NCBI GenBank assembly: GCA_030636285.1
Contig: DAOVXE010000034.1
Location: forward strand, 1-7,729
DNA: 7,729 nucleotides
Direction of reading: 5' to 3'
DNA from: Candidatus Falkowiibacteriota bacterium
GTDB taxonomy: Bacteria > Patescibacteria > ABY1 > BM507 > UBA12075
Position 1 is the first letter of the stretch. Each line of letters opens with the position of its first letter. Both the position numbers and the translations under genes were made by a program. This document shows positions 1-6,840 of the stretch, piece by piece. A model generated the notes under the pieces. It saw nothing but the letters and a program-made list of their open reading frames with translations. It was not told the origin of the DNA and ran no database searches.

Positions 1-947
1 AAGTCCTCAATGCGTCCGTTGGTGCAAGATCCAATATAAACCTGATCTATTTTTTTTCCAACAAGTTCGCTAACATCCACTACCTGATCCGGCTTATAAC
101 CGAAAGTAACCTGTGGCGCCAAATCAGAAACATCAATAGTAATTTCATCTGTATAAACAGCATCAGGATCAGGGTGCCACTTATGATAATCTTCAAGAGC
201 ATCAGCATAAGATTTATACTTATTAGAAATAAACGGCCAAAGATATTTTACAGTCGTCATGTCCGGAAGACAGATGCCACAGGTTGCGCCCGCTTCAATC
301 GCCATATTACAGCATGTCATTCTGGCTTCCATGCTCATGGCGTCTACTATAGATCCGGTAAATTCTATAATTTTATCGGTCGCGCCGTTTACGCCTAGTA
401 TGCCAATGACGTAAAGAATAACATCCTTGGCATAAACATTATCAGGAAGTTTCCCGACAATATTAATTTTCATTGTTTCAGGAACACGAAAAGAACAAAC
501 GCCCTTTAGAATTCCAACTTCCAAATCTGTAGTGCCGATTCCGGCAGCAAAAGCGCCAAAGGCTCCATGCGTGCAGGTATGAGAATCTCCCATAATAACT
601 GTGTATCCCGGCCTAATAAAACCTTTTTCCGGAAATAAAGCATGGCACACTCCATTGTTTCCAACATCAAAGAAATCCTTGATATTGTGCCGCTTAGCCC
701 AATCTCTTAGAATTTTTCCCTGCACTGCTGTCTTTGAATCCTTTGCAGGAGTAACATGATCTATAACCGCCTTAATTTTAGCTGGATTAAAAACTTGATC
801 CAGGCCTTGTTCAACTAAATCATTAATCGCAATTGGCGTTGTTATTTCATGGCACATTACCACATCAATATCCAATACCACATTTTCGTTTGACGGGTTA
901 TCACGCCAATGAGCCTTAAAAATTTTTTGTGCAACTGTTTGTCCCAT
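1..947 (-). CDS. leuC: 3-isopropylmalate dehydratase / homoaconitase-type large subunit, N-terminal 315 residues (C-terminus beyond window)
   Basis: Large subunit of an aconitase-superfamily [4Fe-4S] isomerase. The LeuC branch moves the hydroxyl of 2-isopropylmalate in cytosolic leucine synthesis, and in citramalate-pathway organisms it also converts citramalate for isoleucine. My minus-strand translation from the ATG at 947 stays open to the window edge. Visible signatures are GDSHTCTHGAFGAF (120-133), GIGTTDLE (137-143), SMEARMTCCNMAIEAGA (205-221) and IGSCTNGR (305-312); C308 is the first cluster ligand. The CxxC holding the other two ligands and about 100 residues lie outside. The sequence looks more like the short ~420-residue LeuC/HacA group than enterobacterial LeuC. 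The start is fixed by a good Shine-Dalgarno sequence and the typical MGQTVAQKI opening. Homoaconitase cannot be excluded from sequence alone. A small subunit (LeuD) would be expected further along this strand, outside the window. Confidence 0.93.
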   Translation of the reverse strand, partial: MGQTVAQKIFKAHWRDNPSNENVVLDIDVVMCHEITTPIAINDLVEQGLDQVFNPAKIKAVIDHVTPAKDSKTAVQGKILRDWAKRHNIKDFFDVGNNGVCHALFPEKGFIRPGYTVIMGDSHTCTHGAFGAFAAGIGTTDLEVGILKGVCSFRVPETMKINIVGKLPDNVYAKDVILYVIGILGVNGATDKIIEFTGSIVDAMSMEARMTCCNMAIEAGATCGICLPDMTTVKYLWPFISNKYKSYADALEDYHKWHPDPDAVYTDEITIDVSDLAPQVTFGYKPDQVVDVSELVGKKIDQVYIGSCTNGRIED

Positions 948-959
948 TTCTTACTCCTT
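948..959 (-). promoter_or_regulatory. Ribosome binding site of leuC
   Basis: On the minus strand AAGGAG lies 6 nt before the ATG. It fixes the leuC start and is the only strong Shine-Dalgarno sequence in front of a full-sized gene in this window; none of the plus-strand genes has one. Confidence 0.85.
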
Positions 960-986
960 TTCTTGTTTTGGTTAATGGATTATTTC

Positions 987-1015
987 AAAATATGTAAAAT
1001 ATTAGCTTAAGCCAA
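987..1015 (-). promoter_or_regulatory. Possible leuC-proximal promoter overlapping a palindrome
   Basis: Minus strand: a -35-like TTGGCT (1015-1010), a 17-nt spacer and a -10-like TATTTT (992-987) would start RNA near 980, giving a leader of about 33 nt. The match is weak and the region is AT-rich, so chance matches are likely. It matters because the -35 lies inside the 997-1020 palindrome, and such a promoter would bypass the upstream terminators. Confidence 0.3.
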
Positions 1016-1020
1016 TATTT
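997..1020. promoter_or_regulatory. 24-bp imperfect palindrome, operator-like
   Basis: The core GCTTAAGC (1005-1012) is a perfect palindrome, flanked on each side by one mismatched position and a further 7 complementary bases (997-1003 with 1014-1020). That is 11 of 12 pairs matched. It lies 50 bp before leuC. Its left half carries TTAGCTTAA (1002-1010), also found in the inverted repeat of the ileS promoter (1471-1479), which suggests a shared regulator. It could also form a hairpin in the leuC leader. Confidence 0.45.
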
Positions 1021-1031
1021 ATTTTAATGAA

Positions 1032-1057
1032 CAAAATAAAAAACCATAAATTTATGG
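1032..1057 (-). terminator. Weak terminator-like hairpin in the leuC leader
   Basis: On the minus strand, CCATA and TATGG (1057-1053, 1048-1044) form a 5-bp stem around an AATT loop, followed at once by six U, an A and four U. The stem is short and AT-rich, so efficiency is doubtful, but the U-run is good. It would be a second stop point between the leader promoter and leuC. Confidence 0.4.
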
Positions 1058-1145
1058 CTTAATGTTACTATAAAACATCAAAAAAATCAAGTAGCTTAAA
1101 GTAGTTTTGTTGTTTTTTTCTTTTTATTAAATATTAGCAAAATTT

Positions 1146-1195
1146 AAAAATGAAAAGAGGACCCAGAATTTACCAAGAAATGGTAACGGGTCCTC
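1146..1195 (-). terminator. Strong intrinsic terminator upstream of leuC (candidate attenuator)
   Basis: Minus strand: 5' arm GAGGACCC (1195-1188) pairs perfectly with GGGTCCTC (1164-1157). Above an internal loop, TTACCA (1186-1181) pairs with TGGTAA (1175-1170) around a 5-nt loop. The 3' side runs into UUUUCAUUUUU. This is by far the best terminator in the window and points only toward leuC. Its position, about 200 nt before the start codon and about 220 nt after a minus-strand promoter, suits an attenuator or the end of a separate small RNA. The first base of the 5' arm overlaps the stop codon of a 7-codon ORF. Confidence 0.8.
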
Positions 1196-1217
1196 ACAAG
1201 ATATTTATAATGCGCAT
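1194..1217 (-). CDS. Candidate seven-residue leader peptide MRIINIL
   Basis: On the minus strand AAAGGA (1231-1226) sits 8 nt before ATG (1217). The reading frame is Met-Arg-Ile-Ile-Asn-Ile-Leu-stop, so four of seven codons are branched-chain, with all three Ile codons used (ATT, ATA, ATC) plus TTG. The TGA stop (1196-1194) overlaps the 5' arm of the attenuator by two bases. By analogy with ilv/leu leader peptides, a ribosome slowed on these codons would cover the arm and prevent termination. A 7-codon ORF is easily found by chance in AT-rich DNA, so the support is position, Shine-Dalgarno spacing and codon content, not length. Confidence 0.45.
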   Translation of the reverse strand: MRIINIL

Positions 1218-1225
1218 TTTAGATA

Positions 1226-1244
1226 TCCTTTCATTTTGAAAAGG
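1226..1244 (-). promoter_or_regulatory. Hairpin masking the leader-peptide Shine-Dalgarno sequence
   Basis: In the minus-strand RNA, CCUUUU (1244-1239) can pair with GAAAGG (1232-1227) around a 6-nt loop, with one G-U pair. This would bury the AAAGGA used by the MRIINIL ORF, so translation of the leader could itself be conditional. The stem is only 6 bp and A/U-rich. Confidence 0.35.
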
Positions 1245-1270
1245 GCAGGTTTTTGAGGAATTTATGTTTT

Positions 1271-1415
1271 GTTGCTTAAATTAAATATTTTAATTATGTT
1301 GAGAAATTATTGTTTCAATACGACTTTTTTTTAAGGTGCACAGCACCTCGGTCCCCTTATTAGGGGCGGTGGTAAAGAAACCATTTTCTCAAGAATTAGA
1401 AATATATTAAGCAAC
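1271..1415 (-). ncRNA. 145-nt structured 5' leader or small RNA, class not recognised
   Basis: Nearly the whole segment folds on itself. GTTGCTTAA (1415-1407) pairs perfectly with TTAAGCAAC (1279-1271). An AU-rich stretch continues the stem. TTGAGAAA (1392-1385) pairs with TTTCTCAA (1306-1299), and GTTTC (1381-1377) with GAAAC (1316-1312). The apex is GC-rich: CCCC/GGGG (1366-1363 with 1356-1353) with a UAAUAA loop, and GGUGC/GCACC (1347-1343 with 1339-1335) with a 3-nt loop. CACC (1371-1368) can instead pair with GGUG (1347-1344), so two exclusive apical folds exist. The minus strand is chosen because a promoter ends 9 nt before the first arm. Either it is the 5' domain of the leuC leader, or RNA 1417-1146 is a free RNA of about 270 nt. 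Confidence 0.6.
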
Positions 1416-1423
1416 TTAAAATT

Positions 1424-1451
1424 ATTATAACATATTAAAAATTAAATTCAA
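1424..1451 (-). promoter_or_regulatory. Minus-strand sigma70-like promoter with extended -10
   Basis: TTGAAT (1451-1446), a 16-nt spacer and TATAAT (1429-1424), preceded by TGT (extended -10, 1432-1430). Predicted start near 1417, immediately before the long hairpin that begins at 1415. This coincidence supports both the promoter and the strand of the structured RNA. Confidence 0.65.
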
Positions 1452-1462
1452 GTAAAAAAATT

Positions 1463-1491
1463 TTGACATTTTAGCTTAAAAAAGCTAAAAT
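1463..1491 (+). promoter_or_regulatory. ileS promoter with built-in inverted repeat
   Basis: A consensus -35 TTGACA (1463-1468), an ideal 17-nt spacer and -10 TAAAAT (1486-1491) predict a start near 1498 and a leader of only about 25 nt, so no room for a T-box. The spacer and -10 are covered by a perfect 9-bp inverted repeat, TTTTAGCTT (1469-1477) and AAGCTAAAA (1482-1490), separated by AAAA. A protein bound there would block RNA polymerase, which suggests an operator; TTAGCTTAA recurs in the leuC palindrome. The ileS ATG has no Shine-Dalgarno sequence. Confidence 0.75.
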
Positions 1492-1522
1492 AATCTTATA
1501 ATTAAGCAGCAAATATTAATTT

Positions 1523-4500
1523 ATGACAAATAAAAAAGATAAAAATAAAGAAAATTCTCTCAAGAGCGAAGTTGCCAGACAGGAAGAAAAAATTCTTGAA
1601 TTTTGGGATAAAGCCGAGATTTTTAAACAATCAGTAGAAAAAAAAGCGCCTAACGGCGACTATGTTTTTTATGACGGCCCGCCCTTTATTACCGGTTTGC
1701 CGCATTACGCTACATTGTTGCCAAGTATAGCCAAAGACGTGGTGCCTAGGTTTTGGACAATGAAAGGATATCATGTAGAGCGTGTTTGGGGTTGGGATTG
1801 TCATGGTTTGCCTGCGGAAAATAAGGTGGAAAAAGAATTGGGTTTGAAAAATAAAAAAGATATTGAAGAACTTGGGGTTAATAAATTTGTAAATGCTTGC
1901 CGTGATTATGTTACCACGGGTTCAGAACAATGGGAGTGGTATATTAAGCGTATTGGCCGCTGGGTGGATATGAAAAATGCCTACAAAACAATGGATTTAA
2001 AATTTATGGAAAGCGTAATTTGGGCTTTTAAAGAATTGTATAATAAAGGTTTAATTTATGAGGATTATCGTTCTTCTTTGCATTGTCCTCGCTGCGCGAC
2101 CCCGCTTTCAAAATTTGAAATTACAATGGATGCTGGTTCGTATAAAGATGTTAAGGATGATTCGGTTATTGTTAAGTTTAGAATTAAGGATCAGGAATCA
2201 GGAATTAAGGACGTTAAAGGAGATATTTATATTTTAGCTTGGACAACTACACCATGGACTTTGCCGGGAAATTTGGCTTTGGCGATTAGAGAAGATATTA
2301 AGTATGTATTAGCTAAAGTTACTAAACATAAAGATTGGGACGGTGAAGGGCCAATACCATTTATTTCAGATTCTAAAATTGAATATTTTATAATTGCCAA
2401 AAATAAATTTGATTTAGTTTTAGGGGAATATTCACCAGAAATTATTCAAGAAATCAAGGGCAAAGAATTAATTGGATTGAAATATGAGCCGTTGTTTGAT
2501 TTGGAAAACAAAGAAATTTTTGAAAATAAAAATACATATAAAATATATCACGGAGATTTTGTTTCTACTGAGGAGGGGACGGGAGTTGTGCATATTGCGC
2601 CGAACTTTGGTGAAGATGATTTTAAATTTGGCAAAAAATATGAATTACCAATGGTTGATTTGATGGATGAGATGGGGCACTATACAAAATTGGCAGGCAA
2701 AGAATGGAATGGATTATATTTTAAAAAAGTTAATACAAAAGTTTTAGAAATATTGGGTGATAAATTATTTTTAAAAGAATTATATGAGCATTCATACCCT
2801 TTTTGTTATCGCTGTGATAGCCCTTTAATTTATAAGACTCAAAAGGCCTGGTATTTGCGAATTTCAGAAATTAGAAATAAAATGCTTAAGGCAAATAAAA
2901 ATATTAATTGGGTGCCAGAATACTTTAAAGATGGCAGATTCAAATATAATTTGAAAAACGCACCGGATTGGTGTTTGTCTCGTTCCCGTTATTGGGGTTC
3001 GCCAATTCCGGTTTGGCGCTGCACTAAGTGCGATGAAATTAAAGTTGCGGGCTCAATAGAAGAGATTGAAAAATTAAGTAATAAAAAAATTAAAGATTTA
3101 CATAGGCCGGCAATTGATAAAATTGAGTTTAAATGTAAAAAATGCAAAAGTAAAATGAAACGAGTAGTTGAGGTTTTGGATTGTTGGTTTGAATCAGGAT
3201 CAATGCCTTTCGCGCAATTTCATTATCCTTTTGAACGAAAAAAGGAATGGAAAAATATTCTTCCGGCAGATTTTATTATTGAATATACGGGTCAATTAAG
3301 AGGCTGGTTTTATTATTTGCATGTTCTAGCTAATGCGTTATTTGATTCTTTGGCATTTAAAAATGTAGTTGTGTCAGGCGTGCTTGCGGGAACAGATGGG
3401 CGTAAAATGAGCAAGTCATACGGTAATTATCCTGATCCAAAAAGTACTTTAGATAAATACGGAGCTGACGCGCTTAGATTGTATTTTATGACAAGTTCAA
3501 TTATGGCAGGGGATGACACAACTTTAAGCGAAAAAGATATTCAGGATGATTTGCGAAAAAATGTTATGCTTCTATGGAATGTCGTTAAATTTTATAGCAT
3601 GTTTTGCGATAATGAAAAAGATATAAAAGAAGATTTAAAATTAGAAAATATTTTAGATAAATGGATTGTTGCCAGATTAAATCAGGTAATTAAAGAAATT
3701 ACCGATAATATGGAGAAATATAATTTACCCAGAGCGGCGCGTCCGATTACAGGGTTTATTGATGATCTGTCAACTTGGTATATACGCCGTTCACGAGGTC
3801 GTTTTAAAGGTGATGATGAAAATGATAAAAATCAGGTTTTAAAAACAACCAAGTATGTTTTAATAACATTTTCTAAGGCAATCGCGCCAATTATGCCGTT
3901 TATAGCCGAGCAGGTTTGGCAGAAAGTTACGGGATATGATTTTAAGAACAAGAATGAATCAGTTCATCTTGAAAAATGGCCCAGCAGATTATATAGAGAT
4001 AACGACTCGGAATGGGTTGGCATACCAAAAGGAAAGAAAGTTAAAACAAAAAGTGGAGCCCTTGTGTCTAACGGAAAAGCTATGCCAAAAGACGAAGTTG
4101 AAGTATTGCATAAAATGGAAGTTGTTAGAAAAATTGTTGAATTGGGATTGGCAAAAAGAGATGAGGCCGGGATTAAAGTAAGACAGCCGCTTGGTAAGTT
4201 AAAAGTTAAAAGTAGAAAGTTAAAAGTAGGAGAAGAATATATAGATTTAATTAAAGATGAATTAAATATTAAAATTGTAGAGACACAAAATTTTGTGTCT
4301 TTTTCCGGAGAAAATGATATTAAGGTGGAGTTGGACACAAGATTAACTAATGAATTAAAGCAAGAAGGTATAAAAAGAGAGATAGTAAGAACCGTAAACA
4401 GTATGCGTAAGAATATTGGCTTAACAATAAATAATAGAATAGTCTTATTTTGGCAGAGCGAGAATCAAAATATAATTCAAGCAATAAAAAAATATTCCAA

Positions 4501-4621
4501 TGATATTCGCGGTGATGTTTTAGCTGATGAAATAAAAAATGAAAAAAGCGACATGATTGATATTCAAAAAGAAATAAATTTGGATAATGGAATATTATTT
4601 TTAGGAATAAAAAAGAAATAG
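1523..4621 (+). CDS. ileS: Isoleucine--tRNA ligase, eukaryote-like (type 2)
   Basis: Class I synthetase that charges tRNA-Ile in the cytosol and hydrolyses misactivated valine. At 1032 residues it is normal for type 2 IleS. In order: PPFITGLPHYAT (53-64) holds the HIGH motif as H61-Y-A-T64, with Thr in place of the second His; WDCHGLPAE (91-99); a Cys pair at 188/191; the CP1 editing domain with WTTTPWTLPGN (240-250) and GTGVVHIAP (352-360) followed by GEDD; further Cys pairs (CYRC, CTKC, CKKC); KMSKS (628-632); the anticodon-binding domain with WYIRRSRGRF; and a long C-terminal region typical of the type 2 family. The start is the first Met before the conserved SEVARQEEKILEFW block. It heads an operon. 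Two period-7 repeats and a palindrome lie within the frame at variable positions. Family knowledge: type 2 enzymes are usually less sensitive to mupirocin. Confidence 0.97.
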   Translation: MTNKKDKNKENSLKSEVARQEEKILEFWDKAEIFKQSVEKKAPNGDYVFYDGPPFITGLPHYATLLPSIAKDVVPRFWTMKGYHVERVWGWDCHGLPAENKVEKELGLKNKKDIEELGVNKFVNACRDYVTTGSEQWEWYIKRIGRWVDMKNAYKTMDLKFMESVIWAFKELYNKGLIYEDYRSSLHCPRCATPLSKFEITMDAGSYKDVKDDSVIVKFRIKDQESGIKDVKGDIYILAWTTTPWTLPGNLALAIREDIKYVLAKVTKHKDWDGEGPIPFISDSKIEYFIIAKNKFDLVLGEYSPEIIQEIKGKELIGLKYEPLFDLENKEIFENKNTYKIYHGDFVSTEEGTGVVHIAPNFGEDDFKFGKKYELPMVDLMDEMGHYTKLAGKEWNGLYFKKVNTKVLEILGDKLFLKELYEHSYPFCYRCDSPLIYKTQKAWYLRISEIRNKMLKANKNINWVPEYFKDGRFKYNLKNAPDWCLSRSRYWGSPIPVWRCTKCDEIKVAGSIEEIEKLSNKKIKDLHRPAIDKIEFKCKKCKSKMKRVVEVLDCWFESGSMPFAQFHYPFERKKEWKNILPADFIIEYTGQLRGWFYYLHVLANALFDSLAFKNVVVSGVLAGTDGRKMSKSYGNYPDPKSTLDKYGADALRLYFMTSSIMAGDDTTLSEKDIQDDLRKNVMLLWNVVKFYSMFCDNEKDIKEDLKLENILDKWIVARLNQVIKEITDNMEKYNLPRAARPITGFIDDLSTWYIRRSRGRFKGDDENDKNQVLKTTKYVLITFSKAIAPIMPFIAEQVWQKVTGYDFKNKNESVHLEKWPSRLYRDNDSEWVGIPKGKKVKTKSGALVSNGKAMPKDEVEVLHKMEVVRKIVELGLAKRDEAGIKVRQPLGKLKVKSRKLKVGEEYIDLIKDELNIKIVETQNFVSFSGENDIKVELDTRLTNELKQEGIKREIVRTVNSMRKNIGLTINNRIVLFWQSENQNIIQAIKKYSNDIRGDVLADEIKNEKSDMIDIQKEINLDNGILFLGIKKK
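2181..2211. repeat. Period-7 repeat inside the ileS editing-domain region
   Basis: Reads as GAATTAA, GGATCAG, GAATCAG, GAATTAA, GGA. The 10-mer GAATTAAGGA recurs exactly 21 nt apart (2181-2190, 2202-2211). It encodes the RIKDQESGIKD segment (220-230) just before WTTTPWTLPGN, where IleS proteins vary in length, so insertion or expansion there would be tolerated. Confidence 0.6.
4196..4230. repeat. Heptamer tandem array inside the ileS C-terminal region
   Basis: Five 7-nt units in a row: AAGTTAA, AAGTTAA, AAGTAGA, AAGTTAA, AAGTAGG. In the ileS frame it gives a KLKV...KLKV repeat (892-902) in a basic linker. The period is 7, not 3, so it arose at the DNA level; 35 nt read through in frame with no stop. 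Confidence 0.8.
4281..4304 (+). repeat. Perfect 20-bp palindrome plus T-run inside ileS
   Basis: 4281-4300 is exactly self-complementary (AGACACAAAA and its reverse complement) and is followed by four more T. In RNA this is a hairpin with a U-tract, the shape of an intrinsic terminator, about 320 nt before the end of ileS and 50 nt after the heptamer array. It encodes ETQNFVSF in a variable part of the protein. Confidence 0.7.
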
Positions 4622-4631
4622 TTTTTATTTT

Positions 4632-5648
4632 ATGCCAAAAACAAAAGCCTTGGTTTTATTTTCCGGCGGTTTGGACTCAATTCTGGCTGTTAAGATGCTT
4701 CAGGCGCAAAAAATAGAAGTAACAGCTGTTTGTTTTACCAGTAATTTTTTTAATGCCGAGCTGGCCAAAGAGTCAGCCAAAAATTTAGGTATTAAGATTA
4801 TTGTTAAGGATATTTTTGAGGCTGAACTCAAACTGGTTAAGAATCCTCCCCATGGACATGGCAAGCACTTGAATCCATGCATTGATTGCCACGCCATAAT
4901 GATACGCCTGGCCGGTGAGATCGCGCGAAAACAGGGCTTTGATTTTGTGGCTACCGGCGAAGTTTTGGGCCAGCGTCCTTTTTCACAAAATAAAAAAGCC
5001 TTGGAAAAAGTAAAAGATTTGTCAGGCGTGGATGTTGTGCGGCCTTTGTCCGCGAAATTATTAGATGAAACCGAGATTGAAAAAAATAAAATATTGATCA
5101 GAGGCCTTTTGGGAAGAATTCGCGGCAGGAGCAGGGAAGATCAAATTGAGCTGGCGCGCAAGTATAAATTAAAAAATTATCCCTTGCCGGCCGGCGGCTG
5201 TTTGTTAACTGATCCAGAATTTAGCAAGCGATTAATAAAATTACTGGACAACTATCCTGATTGTGATATTAATGATGTTGAGATTATTAAGAACGGCCGG
5301 GTGTTTTGGCTAAAAGCTAAAGGGAACGTTTTTGTTTTAGCGGTTATCGGGCGTAATCATGAAGAAAGTGAGAAGCTTAAAAAACTTGCCAAAAAGGGTG
5401 ATTTTATTGTAGAATTAAAAGAGATAACCGGTCCAAGCACTTTGGTCAGATCTATAAATTTAAAGAAAGCAGTAGCTTTTAAAAGCAATTATTACATACA
5501 GATCCCCAAAATTTTAAGCTTGGGCAAATTAAGGCTTAGCGAGCCTAAGAATTTTGAGCAAATATTTGATGTTATTTGCCTTTTGACCGGATATTATTCT
5601 ACCAAAGCCAGAAACAAGGAGGTGGAATTAATAGTTAAAAATTTTTAA
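4632..5648 (+). CDS. ThiI-like PP-loop RNA-modification protein with probable NFACT-R-type C-terminal domain
   Basis: Probable ATP-dependent tRNA sulfur-transfer or related modification enzyme. The N-terminal PP-loop is FSGGLDS (10-16). H74, H76 and H79 lead into NPCIDC (81-86), resembling the NPC cysteine site of MnmA-type thiolases but with a second Cys. GEVLGQRPFSQ (109-119) follows, then PLPAGGCLLTDP (184-195), whose C190 could be the second catalytic cysteine. The last 120-140 residues (VEIIKNGRVFW, VIGRNHEESEKL, SYYSTKAR-like end) look like the small RNA-binding NFACT-R module that is known fused to ThiI-like PP-loop domains. There is no THUMP domain, so it is not classical ThiI; I give no symbol. 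It starts 10 nt after ileS with no Shine-Dalgarno sequence, so it is co-transcribed with a tRNA-charging gene, which fits a tRNA role. Substrate base and sulfur donor are unknown. Confidence 0.75.
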   Translation: MPKTKALVLFSGGLDSILAVKMLQAQKIEVTAVCFTSNFFNAELAKESAKNLGIKIIVKDIFEAELKLVKNPPHGHGKHLNPCIDCHAIMIRLAGEIARKQGFDFVATGEVLGQRPFSQNKKALEKVKDLSGVDVVRPLSAKLLDETEIEKNKILIRGLLGRIRGRSREDQIELARKYKLKNYPLPAGGCLLTDPEFSKRLIKLLDNYPDCDINDVEIIKNGRVFWLKAKGNVFVLAVIGRNHEESEKLKKLAKKGDFIVELKEITGPSTLVRSINLKKAVAFKSNYYIQIPKILSLGKLRLSEPKNFEQIFDVICLLTGYYSTKARNKEVELIVKNF

Positions 5649-5661
5649 TTTTATTAATATT

Positions 5662-6840
5662 ATGGCTTTTGTTGCTAATACCAGGGAAAATATAAAAGTT
5701 GATATTGTTAAAATAGTTAATGATATTTTTAAGCAGGCTATTGATCTTGGAGCAAGCGATATTCATATTGAATCAACTTACGCGGGAATGGTGATCCGCT
5801 ATCGGGTGGATGGCACATTAAAAGTAATATCAGAAGGCGATAAAATGCTTAGGGATTTTATAATATCAAGAATCAAAGTTATGGCTCTCCTAAAGACTAC
5901 CGGATTGCCCCAGCCACAGGAAGGTAATATTAAATTCAAGCAAGGCGATATTGACGTTGATATGCGAATTTCTATTTTTCCCACCAGCTCCGGGGAATGC
6001 GTGGTTATTCGGGTACTGGAAACCGATAAATATTTCGGTGATTTTTGTGAATTAGGCCTTTTAGATGAACAGGTAAAAGCGATTGAAAAAATTATCAAGC
6101 AGCCTTATGGTTTGGTATTGGTTACCGGGCCCAATGGCAGTGGCAAATCCACTACTTTGTTCACGATTTTAAATCGCTTGAATGAGCCGGGGAAGAGCCT
6201 GGTAACTTTGGAAGACCCGGTGGAAAGAAAGATTGATATGGTGCGCCAAACAAATATTAATCCTGATATTAATCTTACTTTTGCCAGCGGCCTTAGATAT
6301 TTGCTCCGCCAGGATCCGGATATTATTATGGTTGGGGAGATCCGGGACAAAGAAACCGCGCAAATTGCGGTGCAGGCCGCCATTACCGGGCATTTAGTAC
6401 TAGCCACCATTCATACCAACGACGCGGCCGGAGCGGTAGTGCGGATGATCAATATGGGTGTAGAGCCGTTTCTTCTCTCAAGCGCTCTCAAGTTTGTGAC
6501 GGCCCAGCGCTTGGCCCGGGTCAATTGCCCGCATTGCAAAAAAGAGTATGAACCGCCACTGGAACTTTTAAAGCGGATTGACGCCCCTCAGAGCATTAAA
6601 TTTTACCATTCAGACGGCTGCGGTGAATGCAACAATGAAGGGGTAAAAGGCAGAATCGGCGTTCATGAGTTAATAGTGGTTACCAAAAAAATTCAGGATT
6701 TAATACTGCTAAAACCATCAGACGAACAGATTAACAAAATAGCAATAGATGAAGGCATGACCACTCTTAGGCAGGCCGCTTTGCAAAAAGTATATGACGG
6801 AACTATCAGCATTGAAGAGGCGATAAGGCTTACCGAATAA
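5662..6840 (+). CDS. GspE/PilB-family secretion or type IV pilus ATPase, short form
   Basis: Hexameric cytoplasmic ATPase of the type II secretion/type IV pilus superfamily, powering pilin assembly or a related process. The N2-like domain has ASDIHIE (31-37) and YRVDG (47-51). The ATPase core shows Walker A GPNGSGKST (156-164), Asp box LEDPVE (183-188), Walker B region DPDIIMVGEIRD (218-229) and His box TGHLVLATIHTND (242-254). A zinc-binding Cys set follows (C289, C292, C320, C323), which is typical of GspE/PilB and not PilT. It is 392 residues against about 560 for PilB because the N-terminal MshEN-type domain is absent. There is no frame break upstream, so the short form looks native. It begins 13 nt after the PP-loop gene. 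No other pilus genes are in view, so extension versus another role is open. Confidence 0.93.
   Translation: MAFVANTRENIKVDIVKIVNDIFKQAIDLGASDIHIESTYAGMVIRYRVDGTLKVISEGDKMLRDFIISRIKVMALLKTTGLPQPQEGNIKFKQGDIDVDMRISIFPTSSGECVVIRVLETDKYFGDFCELGLLDEQVKAIEKIIKQPYGLVLVTGPNGSGKSTTLFTILNRLNEPGKSLVTLEDPVERKIDMVRQTNINPDINLTFASGLRYLLRQDPDIIMVGEIRDKETAQIAVQAAITGHLVLATIHTNDAAGAVVRMINMGVEPFLLSSALKFVTAQRLARVNCPHCKKEYEPPLELLKRIDAPQSIKFYHSDGCGECNNEGVKGRIGVHELIVVTKKIQDLILLKPSDEQINKIAIDEGMTTLRQAALQKVYDGTISIEEAIRLTE

Follow-up and report, generated by a model that had tools for sequence, protein, structure and literature searches.

What is encoded in the spacer between the divergent leuC-like and ileS genes of Candidatus Falkowiibacteriota bacterium? 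The stretch of DNA analysed here (7,729 nucleotides of contig DAOVXE010000034.1; hereafter, the window) carries a leuC-like gene on the minus strand, followed by ileS and the genes for a ThiI-like protein, a PilB/GspE-type ATPase and LemA, all on the plus strand. This set of genes is what a Parcubacteria genome would contain. An original prediction placed in this spacer an unrecognised structured RNA that is transcribed from its own minus-strand promoter. This proposal is now backed by two homologs, by conservation above the rate at fourfold degenerate sites and by the lack of a counterpart in Rfam: in agreement with the prediction, a search of Rfam (release 15) up to E=5 gives no match to this region, the three matches in the window being all located elsewhere (E 0.7-2.7, all under the gathering scores), and no match to either homologous locus at the same limit. 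Judging from the sequences, the RNA is a new, narrowly distributed family, with three known members, of a known general kind.

The homologs were detected at the DNA level: among 111 genomes of the related order (the order of G001), full-length matches to the RNA region are present in two, G005 (locus L021; 73% identity, E 9.6e-40) and G006 (locus L022; 72% identity, E 1.9e-34). Matches of 19-53 bases in 25 further genomes (E 6e-5 to 0.01) were read, without individual inspection, as A+T-rich chance similarity, and so were similarly short matches (E 5e-5 to 0.001) in seven genomes of a class sample of 380, where G005 was the sole full match. Claims of absence from these searches are limited by the number of candidates scored (at most six per genome in the order and at most two in the class sample), by the possible incompleteness of the genomes and by the sampled character of the class set. 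Phage and plasmid records searched with the L021 sequence yielded no match; in viral contigs, two RNA patterns gave 0 matches, a 17-base RNA pattern matched 10 stretches, and a leuC scan found none. Among the family genomes, the PilB protein of the window is 91% identical to that of G006, followed by G009 (71%) and G002 (69%), so that by this measure G006 appears to be the genome closest to the window. The window IleS shows 76% identity to two Parcubacteria proteins and 33% identity to a single distant archaeal match.

Common to all three sequences are a promoter with an extended -10 element, an outer hairpin and apical hairpins, a mini-ORF with its Shine-Dalgarno sequence, and a terminator (Table 1). 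Between G005 and G006, 237 of the 246 positions of the RNA region are identical (~96%; alignment A2, columns 144-398, gaps left out), compared with 62.8% of the fourfold sites in ileS (n=137) and 71.8% in uvrB (n=71). For the window and G006, the corresponding values are 172 of 231 for the region and 111 of 140 for the 5' domain, against fourfold-site identities of 63.0% in pilB (n=146) and 60.0% in the thiI-like gene (n=90). Because identity in the RNA region exceeds the fourfold-site rate, the region is under selection. The similarity of the window to its relatives is lower beyond the 5' domain (22-23 of 32 positions in the linker, and 70/97 and 72/96 in the 3' domain, with 22/32 and 72/96, respectively, for G006), and the common promoter stretch is identical at 66 of 76 positions. 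Conservation above the level of fourfold sites is the strongest evidence of function, although by itself it does not separate a function of the RNA from a function of the DNA.

The predicted minus-strand promoter with an extended -10 is indeed found in the window, and a promoter with the same 16-bp spacing, TTGCAA-16-TATAAT with TG, occupies the corresponding place in L021. A transcription start right beside the hairpin, also part of the prediction, fits the window but is not general, given that both relatives have 15 extra bases between the -10 element and the hairpin. Similarly, the predicted extent of the feature holds for the hairpin part but is too small, because the feature runs on to a terminator at about position 1146; the best reading is a predicted transcript of ~275-290 nt, from the promoter to this intrinsic terminator. 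A promoter and a terminator of its own, the mark of a stand-alone small RNA gene, are thus present at the sequence level in all three members; a simple terminator scan of the window did not list the stem at 1157..1195.

The divergent promoter of ileS contains a dyad that spans its spacer and -10 element, ATTTTAGCTT-AAAA-AAGCTAAAAT (window 1468-1491; L021 1415-1438; L001, a further ileS-uvrB locus, 5940-5959). The letters differ in L001, with the symmetry retained (AAGCC..GGGCT); the L001 and L021 dyads were read by eye. The dyad looks like the operator of an ileS repressor. Furthermore, GCTTAA/TTAAGC occurs eight times in window positions 948-1522, compared with 0.9 expected (0 of 1000 shuffles), and three times in the L021 spacer; these copies are possible candidate sites for a regulator.

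Table 1. Coordinates of the predicted RNA gene, its parts and its neighbours in the window
Feature	Position	Strand	Evidence or remark
leuC-like gene (3-isopropylmalate dehydratase/aconitase family)	3..947	-	Cut by the window edge; 3' neighbour of the RNA
U-tract UUUUCAUUUUU after the terminator stem, doubles as helix X 3' strand	1146..1156	-	
Terminator stem GAGGACCC/GGGUCCUC with inner UUACC/GGUAA hairpin	1157..1195	-	9+5 modelled pairs, 42/42 cells paired
Mini-ORF MRIINIL*, Shine-Dalgarno GAAAGGA (1232-1226) 8 nt before AUG	1194..1217	-	Reading frame
Helix X 5' strand AAAAUGAAAG, partly overlaps the Shine-Dalgarno; partner 1156-1147	1228..1237	-	Modelled
Linker AAAACAUAAAU, conserved	1260..1270	-	Alignments; unpaired in the model
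5' domain, long imperfect hairpin closed by GUUGCUUAA/UUAAGCAAC, apex with two hairpins	1271..1415	-	z -6.56
Apical hairpin 2, GAGGUGC/GCACCUU	1333..1349	-	6 modelled pairs, 100% of cells paired in three sequences
Apical hairpin 1, CCCCU-AAUA-AGGGG (relatives CUCC/GGAG)	1353..1366	-	One compensatory U-A/C-G; one pair broken in G006
RNA promoter, sigma-70 type, TTGAAT-16-TATAAT, extended -10 (TGT TATAAT)	1424..1451	-	Aligned in 3/3 sequences
Divergent ileS promoter TTGACA-17-TAAAAT	1463..1491	+	Kept in relatives
ileS	1523..4621	+	Divergent neighbour of the RNA in the window, L021 and L022

The nearly full-length hairpin that had been predicted is readily recovered: positions 1417-1271 (147 nt) fold at -42.1 kcal/mol (z -6.56), and none of 200 shuffled sequences folds as well. 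The same holds for the whole of 1417-1146 on the minus strand (z -6.98, 0/200) and for the whole-length folds of L021 (z -4.60) and L022 (z -3.57), each of which beats all 200 shuffles. When 204 pieces of 150 nt from both strands of the window were ranked by fold z, with 40 shuffles for each piece, 1276-1425 took second place on the plus strand and fourth on the minus strand; the lowest value of this set, -5.06, belongs to positions 376-525 (minus), within the leuC coding sequence. The notion that the apex adopts two exclusive folds was not confirmed: when the 45-nt apex of the window is folded in isolation, its six best suboptimal structures all retain the same two hairpins.

A common structure was drawn from the window, L021 and L022 themselves, a limit on the weight of the pairing counts; in this structure, 123 of the 128 cells in the 5' domain and all 72 in the 3' domain are standard pairs, four of the broken pairs in the 5' domain being found in the window and one in G006. 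Sliding the partners lowers the standard pairs to 39-43% and 40-68% in the two domains, respectively. Twelve modelled pairs differ between the window and L021, of which eight pair in both; for L022, the numbers are 15 and 10. RNAalifold, applied to a MAFFT alignment of the three sequences, recovered the terminator, the outer stem and the two hairpins of the apex, and put local hairpins in place of the middle helix, where the minimum-energy fold of L021 also deviates; 5 of its 67 pairs show a double change, and the covariation term is +2.01, that is, unfavourable. Thus, the modelled outer stem, apex and terminator are well supported and the middle helix is not.

The covariation test that had been proposed was run on three sequences, two of them 96% identical, a set too thin to decide the matter. 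Two doubly changed pairs are compensatory, one in apical hairpin 1 (U-A/C-G) and one in helix X (C-G/U-A), but the controls are not beaten: 158 of 500 shuffles in the 5' domain and 173 of 500 in the 3' domain reach the observed covariation score, and one doubly changed pair also appears in slid controls (2/6 in the 5' domain, at slides -3 and -1, and 1/6 in the 3' domain, at slide +2).

Folding alone does not assign the strand either, because the plus strand of the hairpin region folds nearly as well as the minus strand (z -6.04). A palindrome acting at the level of DNA, without RNA function, such as a repeat, a MITE-like insertion or an operator region, would account for this property, for the ends TTGCTTAA/TTAAGCAA, for the over-represented GCTTAA/TTAAGC in the window spacer and for the conservation of the divergent promoters in the spacer. 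We nevertheless rate such a palindrome as highly improbable, considering that a promoter and a terminator are placed around the hairpin in all three sequences, and that 195 of 200 pair cells are standard on the minus strand compared to 182 when read on the opposite one (a comparison biased by the structure having been drawn on the minus strand). Copy number also speaks against it. A dispersed repeat or MITE would be found in several copies per genome, and R1, a covariance model trained on the 5' domains of the window, L021 and L022, has one match each in G005 and G006; a repeat or mobile element was rejected on this single copy per genome in the two relatives.

A second covariance model, R2, was built for the 3' domain from L021 and L022 only, with the window left out, and likewise has one match in each of these two genomes. 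For both models these matches are members of the training set and inform on copy number only; by contrast, the R2 score of 73.8 bits for the window is independent of its training set. The genome searches with both models ran with stricter Infernal filters, which limits claims of absence: under these filters, and with genomes that may be incomplete, R1 matched none of the remaining 10 family genomes, all of them in the order searched. An R1 match (L043, E 0.77) that lies wholly inside an open stretch of 458 codons was taken as chance, and so were all nine weak R2 matches (E 0.0099 to 0.66). Six of the nine are wholly within open stretches of 276-656 codons and L061 is in one of 111 codons; L060 is mostly intergenic and corresponds to an ordinary terminator-like hairpin, and L063 is in no open stretch. 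In the uvrB surroundings of eight further family members (L046-L053), R1 gave nothing convincing (best 15.5 bits), and two family genomes had no match to uvrB.

The narrow distribution bears on the possibility that a known class, namely 6S RNA, T-box, tmRNA or RNase P, has diverged beyond recognition by Rfam. The outline does resemble 6S RNA in length and in the long hairpin with internal loops. However, these RNAs would be expected in most genomes of a family, there is no Rfam match up to E=5, and R1, run under stricter filters on genomes that may be incomplete, had no match in the other 10 family genomes, so we view a diverged known class as the least probable of the explanations. In the case of the T-box, the RNA would be found 5' of an aminoacyl-tRNA synthetase or amino-acid gene in the same transcript; here ileS is divergent, and the 3' gene is uvrB in two of the three loci and leuC in one.

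In the 3' domain, the Shine-Dalgarno GAAAGGA, the AUG and the 8-nt spacing between them are identical in all three sequences, with the mini-ORF starting as MHIVNN... in G005 and MHILNN... in G006. The L022 frame, MHILNNWEDPYKLPFW*, ends in the terminator, as it does in the window; the L021 frame, MHIVNNWEDPHN..., passes through it. Codon 4 is ATA, TTG or GTT (Ile, Leu, Val) across the three species, and this always aliphatic residue hints at coding, though at a single position; about eleven codons in, the L021 and L022 frames are put out of step by a one-base gap, which makes a long conserved peptide unlikely. In the predicted ensembles of the three sequences, the Shine-Dalgarno bases are 57-100% paired, in the relatives mainly with an upstream CCUUUU; in the window, GAAA pairs mainly with the U-tract, and GGA mainly with the bases immediately downstream. 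Helix X consists of 10 modelled pairs with 30 of 30 cells paired; in the ensembles of the relatives, its 5' strand pairs with that CCUUUU instead. The terminator stem starts at codon 8 of the mini-ORF in all three sequences, with the AUG 21-22 nt before the stem. The start of the window mini-ORF is also covered by a 28-nt near-perfect palindrome, GATATCTAAAATGCGCATTATAAATATC (1200-1227); the TCTAAAATGC(A/G)CATT part is kept in the relatives, with the outer symmetry lost.

Such an arrangement could make the RNA a cis-acting, translation-gated attenuator, that is, the leader of uvrB or leuC. With a ribosome loaded on the mini-ORF, the 5' arm of the terminator would be covered and transcription would enter the next gene; with the Shine-Dalgarno paired, transcription would stop at ~1146. 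We consider this a possible, if tentative, explanation. It accounts for the mini-ORF better than a stand-alone RNA gene does, since leaders, more often than purely non-coding RNAs, carry a mini-ORF with a good Shine-Dalgarno. The invariant Shine-Dalgarno, AUG and spacing, the pairing of the Shine-Dalgarno in the ensembles, the start of the terminator stem at codon 8, the helix X that may join the Shine-Dalgarno strand to the U-tract (with one compensatory pair), and the location of uvrB close behind the terminator on the same strand in L021 and L022 are all compatible with a leader. Conversely, the 3' genes differ, leuC being ~200 nt further on with a Shine-Dalgarno of its own (noted by eye), and the short distance from the AUG to the stem implies that the ribosome would have to load very fast. 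A result from E. coli speaks for such gating: with a stop codon shifted to 5 bp ahead of a terminator, termination fell from ~90% to under 10%. On the other side, the same study states that a terminator within the first 100 bp of a coding region can escape repression by ribosomes, with exceptions, such as pyrBI, that depend on polymerase pausing (PMC4824070).

The 3' neighbour is where the window and its relatives part. In L021 and L022, the RNA occupies much of the gap between ileS, which is divergent, and uvrB, which is on the RNA strand and begins shortly after the terminator. A separate uvrB start at TGATAAAAT, directly after the terminator in L021, is possible as judged by eye; a promoter scan of L021 did not find it. 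In the window, a second hairpin, CCAUAAAUUUAUGG followed by UUUUUUAUUUUG, is located between the RNA and leuC (1028-1050, minus) and appears, by eye, to be weakly terminator-like.

The link with leuC implied by the original prediction did not survive the comparison, because the element precedes uvrB in both relatives and leuC has no match at E 1e-20 in any of the 12 family genomes, which may be incomplete; a positive control from within the family was lacking. Elsewhere, this query did match 7 of the 111 order genomes at 41-54% identity (six open frames of 659-734 aa and one of 426 aa) and, at E 1e-60, 3 of the 380 genomes of the class sample. The best protein relatives of the window LeuC (P0001-P0005) include one at 90% and four at 83-84% identity, and the remainder of the best 120 of 8000 scored are at 74-78%; the named matches among this remainder come mostly from Desulfobulbaceae, Desulfurivibrionaceae, Thermodesulfobacteriota and other Deltaproteobacteria or Proteobacteria. 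With ileS constant, the 3' gene variable and no leuC match at E 1e-20 in the 12 family genomes, leuC looks like a newcomer, and the leuC-like gene of the window was probably acquired horizontally.

An attenuator of leuC controlled by branched-chain amino acids, with MRIINIL as the leader peptide, is suggested by the four Ile or Leu codons among the six that follow the AUG, beside a leuC-like gene, and by the Ile, Val or Leu at codon 4 in the three species. We deem it improbable: four such codons out of six are not rare in A+T-rich sequence (roughly 8% by our own estimate), the relatives have uvrB at this place, with no leuC found in the family, and the antiterminator is not conserved. As a general role, a leuC-specific leader was rejected, given uvrB in both relatives and 0 of 12 family genomes with a leuC match at E 1e-20. 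The antiterminator in question is the predicted pairing of apical GGGGACC with GGUCCUC in the terminator arm. The 7-bp complementarity exists in the window, but its conservation fails, an A-C mismatch in both relatives reducing the pairing from -10.7 to -5.0 kcal/mol. The apex change from CCCC/GGGG in the window to CUCC/GGAG in the relatives maintains the local hairpin, and the terminator arm GGUCCUC is invariant; with the long-range pairing broken in both relatives and the compensatory difference preserving the local hairpin, this antiterminator was dropped.

In two further loci, L001 (spacer 4421-5997) and L002 (spacer 3229-5997), uvrB and ileS flank one interval in which other genes are inserted between them and the RNA is not recognisable: an ORF resembling a REP-associated transposase in L001 and an AbiE-like pair in L002, both named by eye. 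The ileS-uvrB spacer of the relatives seems to be an insertion spot. From residue 56 on, the window IleS is 80% identical to that of G001 and 53% to that of G005 (381 residues), which sets the body of the gene nearer to G001, even though it is G005 that the adjoining promoter and RNA match; a weak signal comes from the first 55 residues (64% identity to G005, 56% to G006, and 60% to G001 and G002). This pattern suggests that the body of ileS was replaced in place, yielding a mosaic gene.

Taken together, these observations lead us to favour, with about even confidence, a stand-alone RNA gene that has a promoter and a terminator to itself and is narrowly distributed, within a small group of Parcubacteria. 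This reading is favoured by the presence of these two signals, by one match per genome in the two relatives, by the constancy of ileS alongside a changing 3' gene, and by the retention of the element in the window although uvrB no longer adjoins it there. The gene would be transcribed divergently from ileS off its extended -10 promoter and would end at the intrinsic terminator. The 5' half, the folded and presumably functional part, would be a stable rod that ends in the two apical hairpins, and the 3' half would hold the hidden Shine-Dalgarno, the mini-ORF and the terminator. The RNA may act alone as a small regulatory RNA, possibly a dual-function one with a translated mini-ORF; if the Shine-Dalgarno opens, or if a ribosome occupies the mini-ORF, the terminator might loosen, so that some transcription enters the 3' gene. 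Pairing of the RNA with the 5' end of ileS or with the start of the next gene was no better than in shuffled sequences in five of six tests; for the next gene of the window, 14 of 200 shuffles were as good, and the effect is absent in the relatives.

A portable riboregulator is conceivable as well, though we find it rather doubtful: the 5' rod would sense a ligand or protein and control access to the mini-ORF Shine-Dalgarno, which in turn would gate the terminator, so that unrelated genes could follow, here uvrB in two species and a leuC of probably horizontal origin in a third. If the element does act in cis, the swap of the 3' gene would amount to the reuse of one attenuator for a newly acquired pathway gene.

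How Parcubacteria and other Patescibacteria regulate their genes has been little explored. Our search of the literature on these bacteria, which lay mostly outside subscription journals, found no description of a native regulatory RNA and, for Parcubacteria, nothing on structured RNA or leader-peptide attenuation; a paper on riboswitches in Patescibacteria proposes them as a tool. With its promoter, its structured domain, its hidden Shine-Dalgarno and its terminator, the conserved element is a concrete, testable candidate for a regulatory element, and the R1 and R2 models can be used to seek further members.

Among known systems, lineage-specific bacterial small RNAs come close to the stand-alone RNA gene that we favour, sharing the promoter, the stable 5' structure, the terminator and, in the two relatives, one match per genome; if the mini-ORF is translated, the RNA, known here from sequence, would be of the dual-function type. 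Compared with 6S RNA, a long imperfect hairpin of similar length that is marked by a promoter-like central bubble and by binding of RNA polymerase, it has two apical hairpins, a narrow distribution in the genomes searched and no Rfam match, the comparison having been made via Rfam only. The leader-peptide attenuators of leu and ilv operons share with it a mini-ORF containing Ile and Leu before a terminator and, in the window, a 3' leuC. These attenuators precede genes for branched-chain amino acids, which applies here to the window only, with uvrB following in both G005 and G006, and the one proposed antiterminator, GGGGACC-GGUCCUC, the sole candidate tested, is not conserved. The translation-coupled attenuators typified by pyrBI of E. 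coli are similar in having a short ORF that adjoins or crosses an intrinsic terminator, and the ORF, the Shine-Dalgarno and their placement relative to the terminator are found in all three sequences, with translation, and hence coupling, only predicted; in contrast to pyrBI, a structured 5' domain of 147 nt comes first, and the 3' gene varies.
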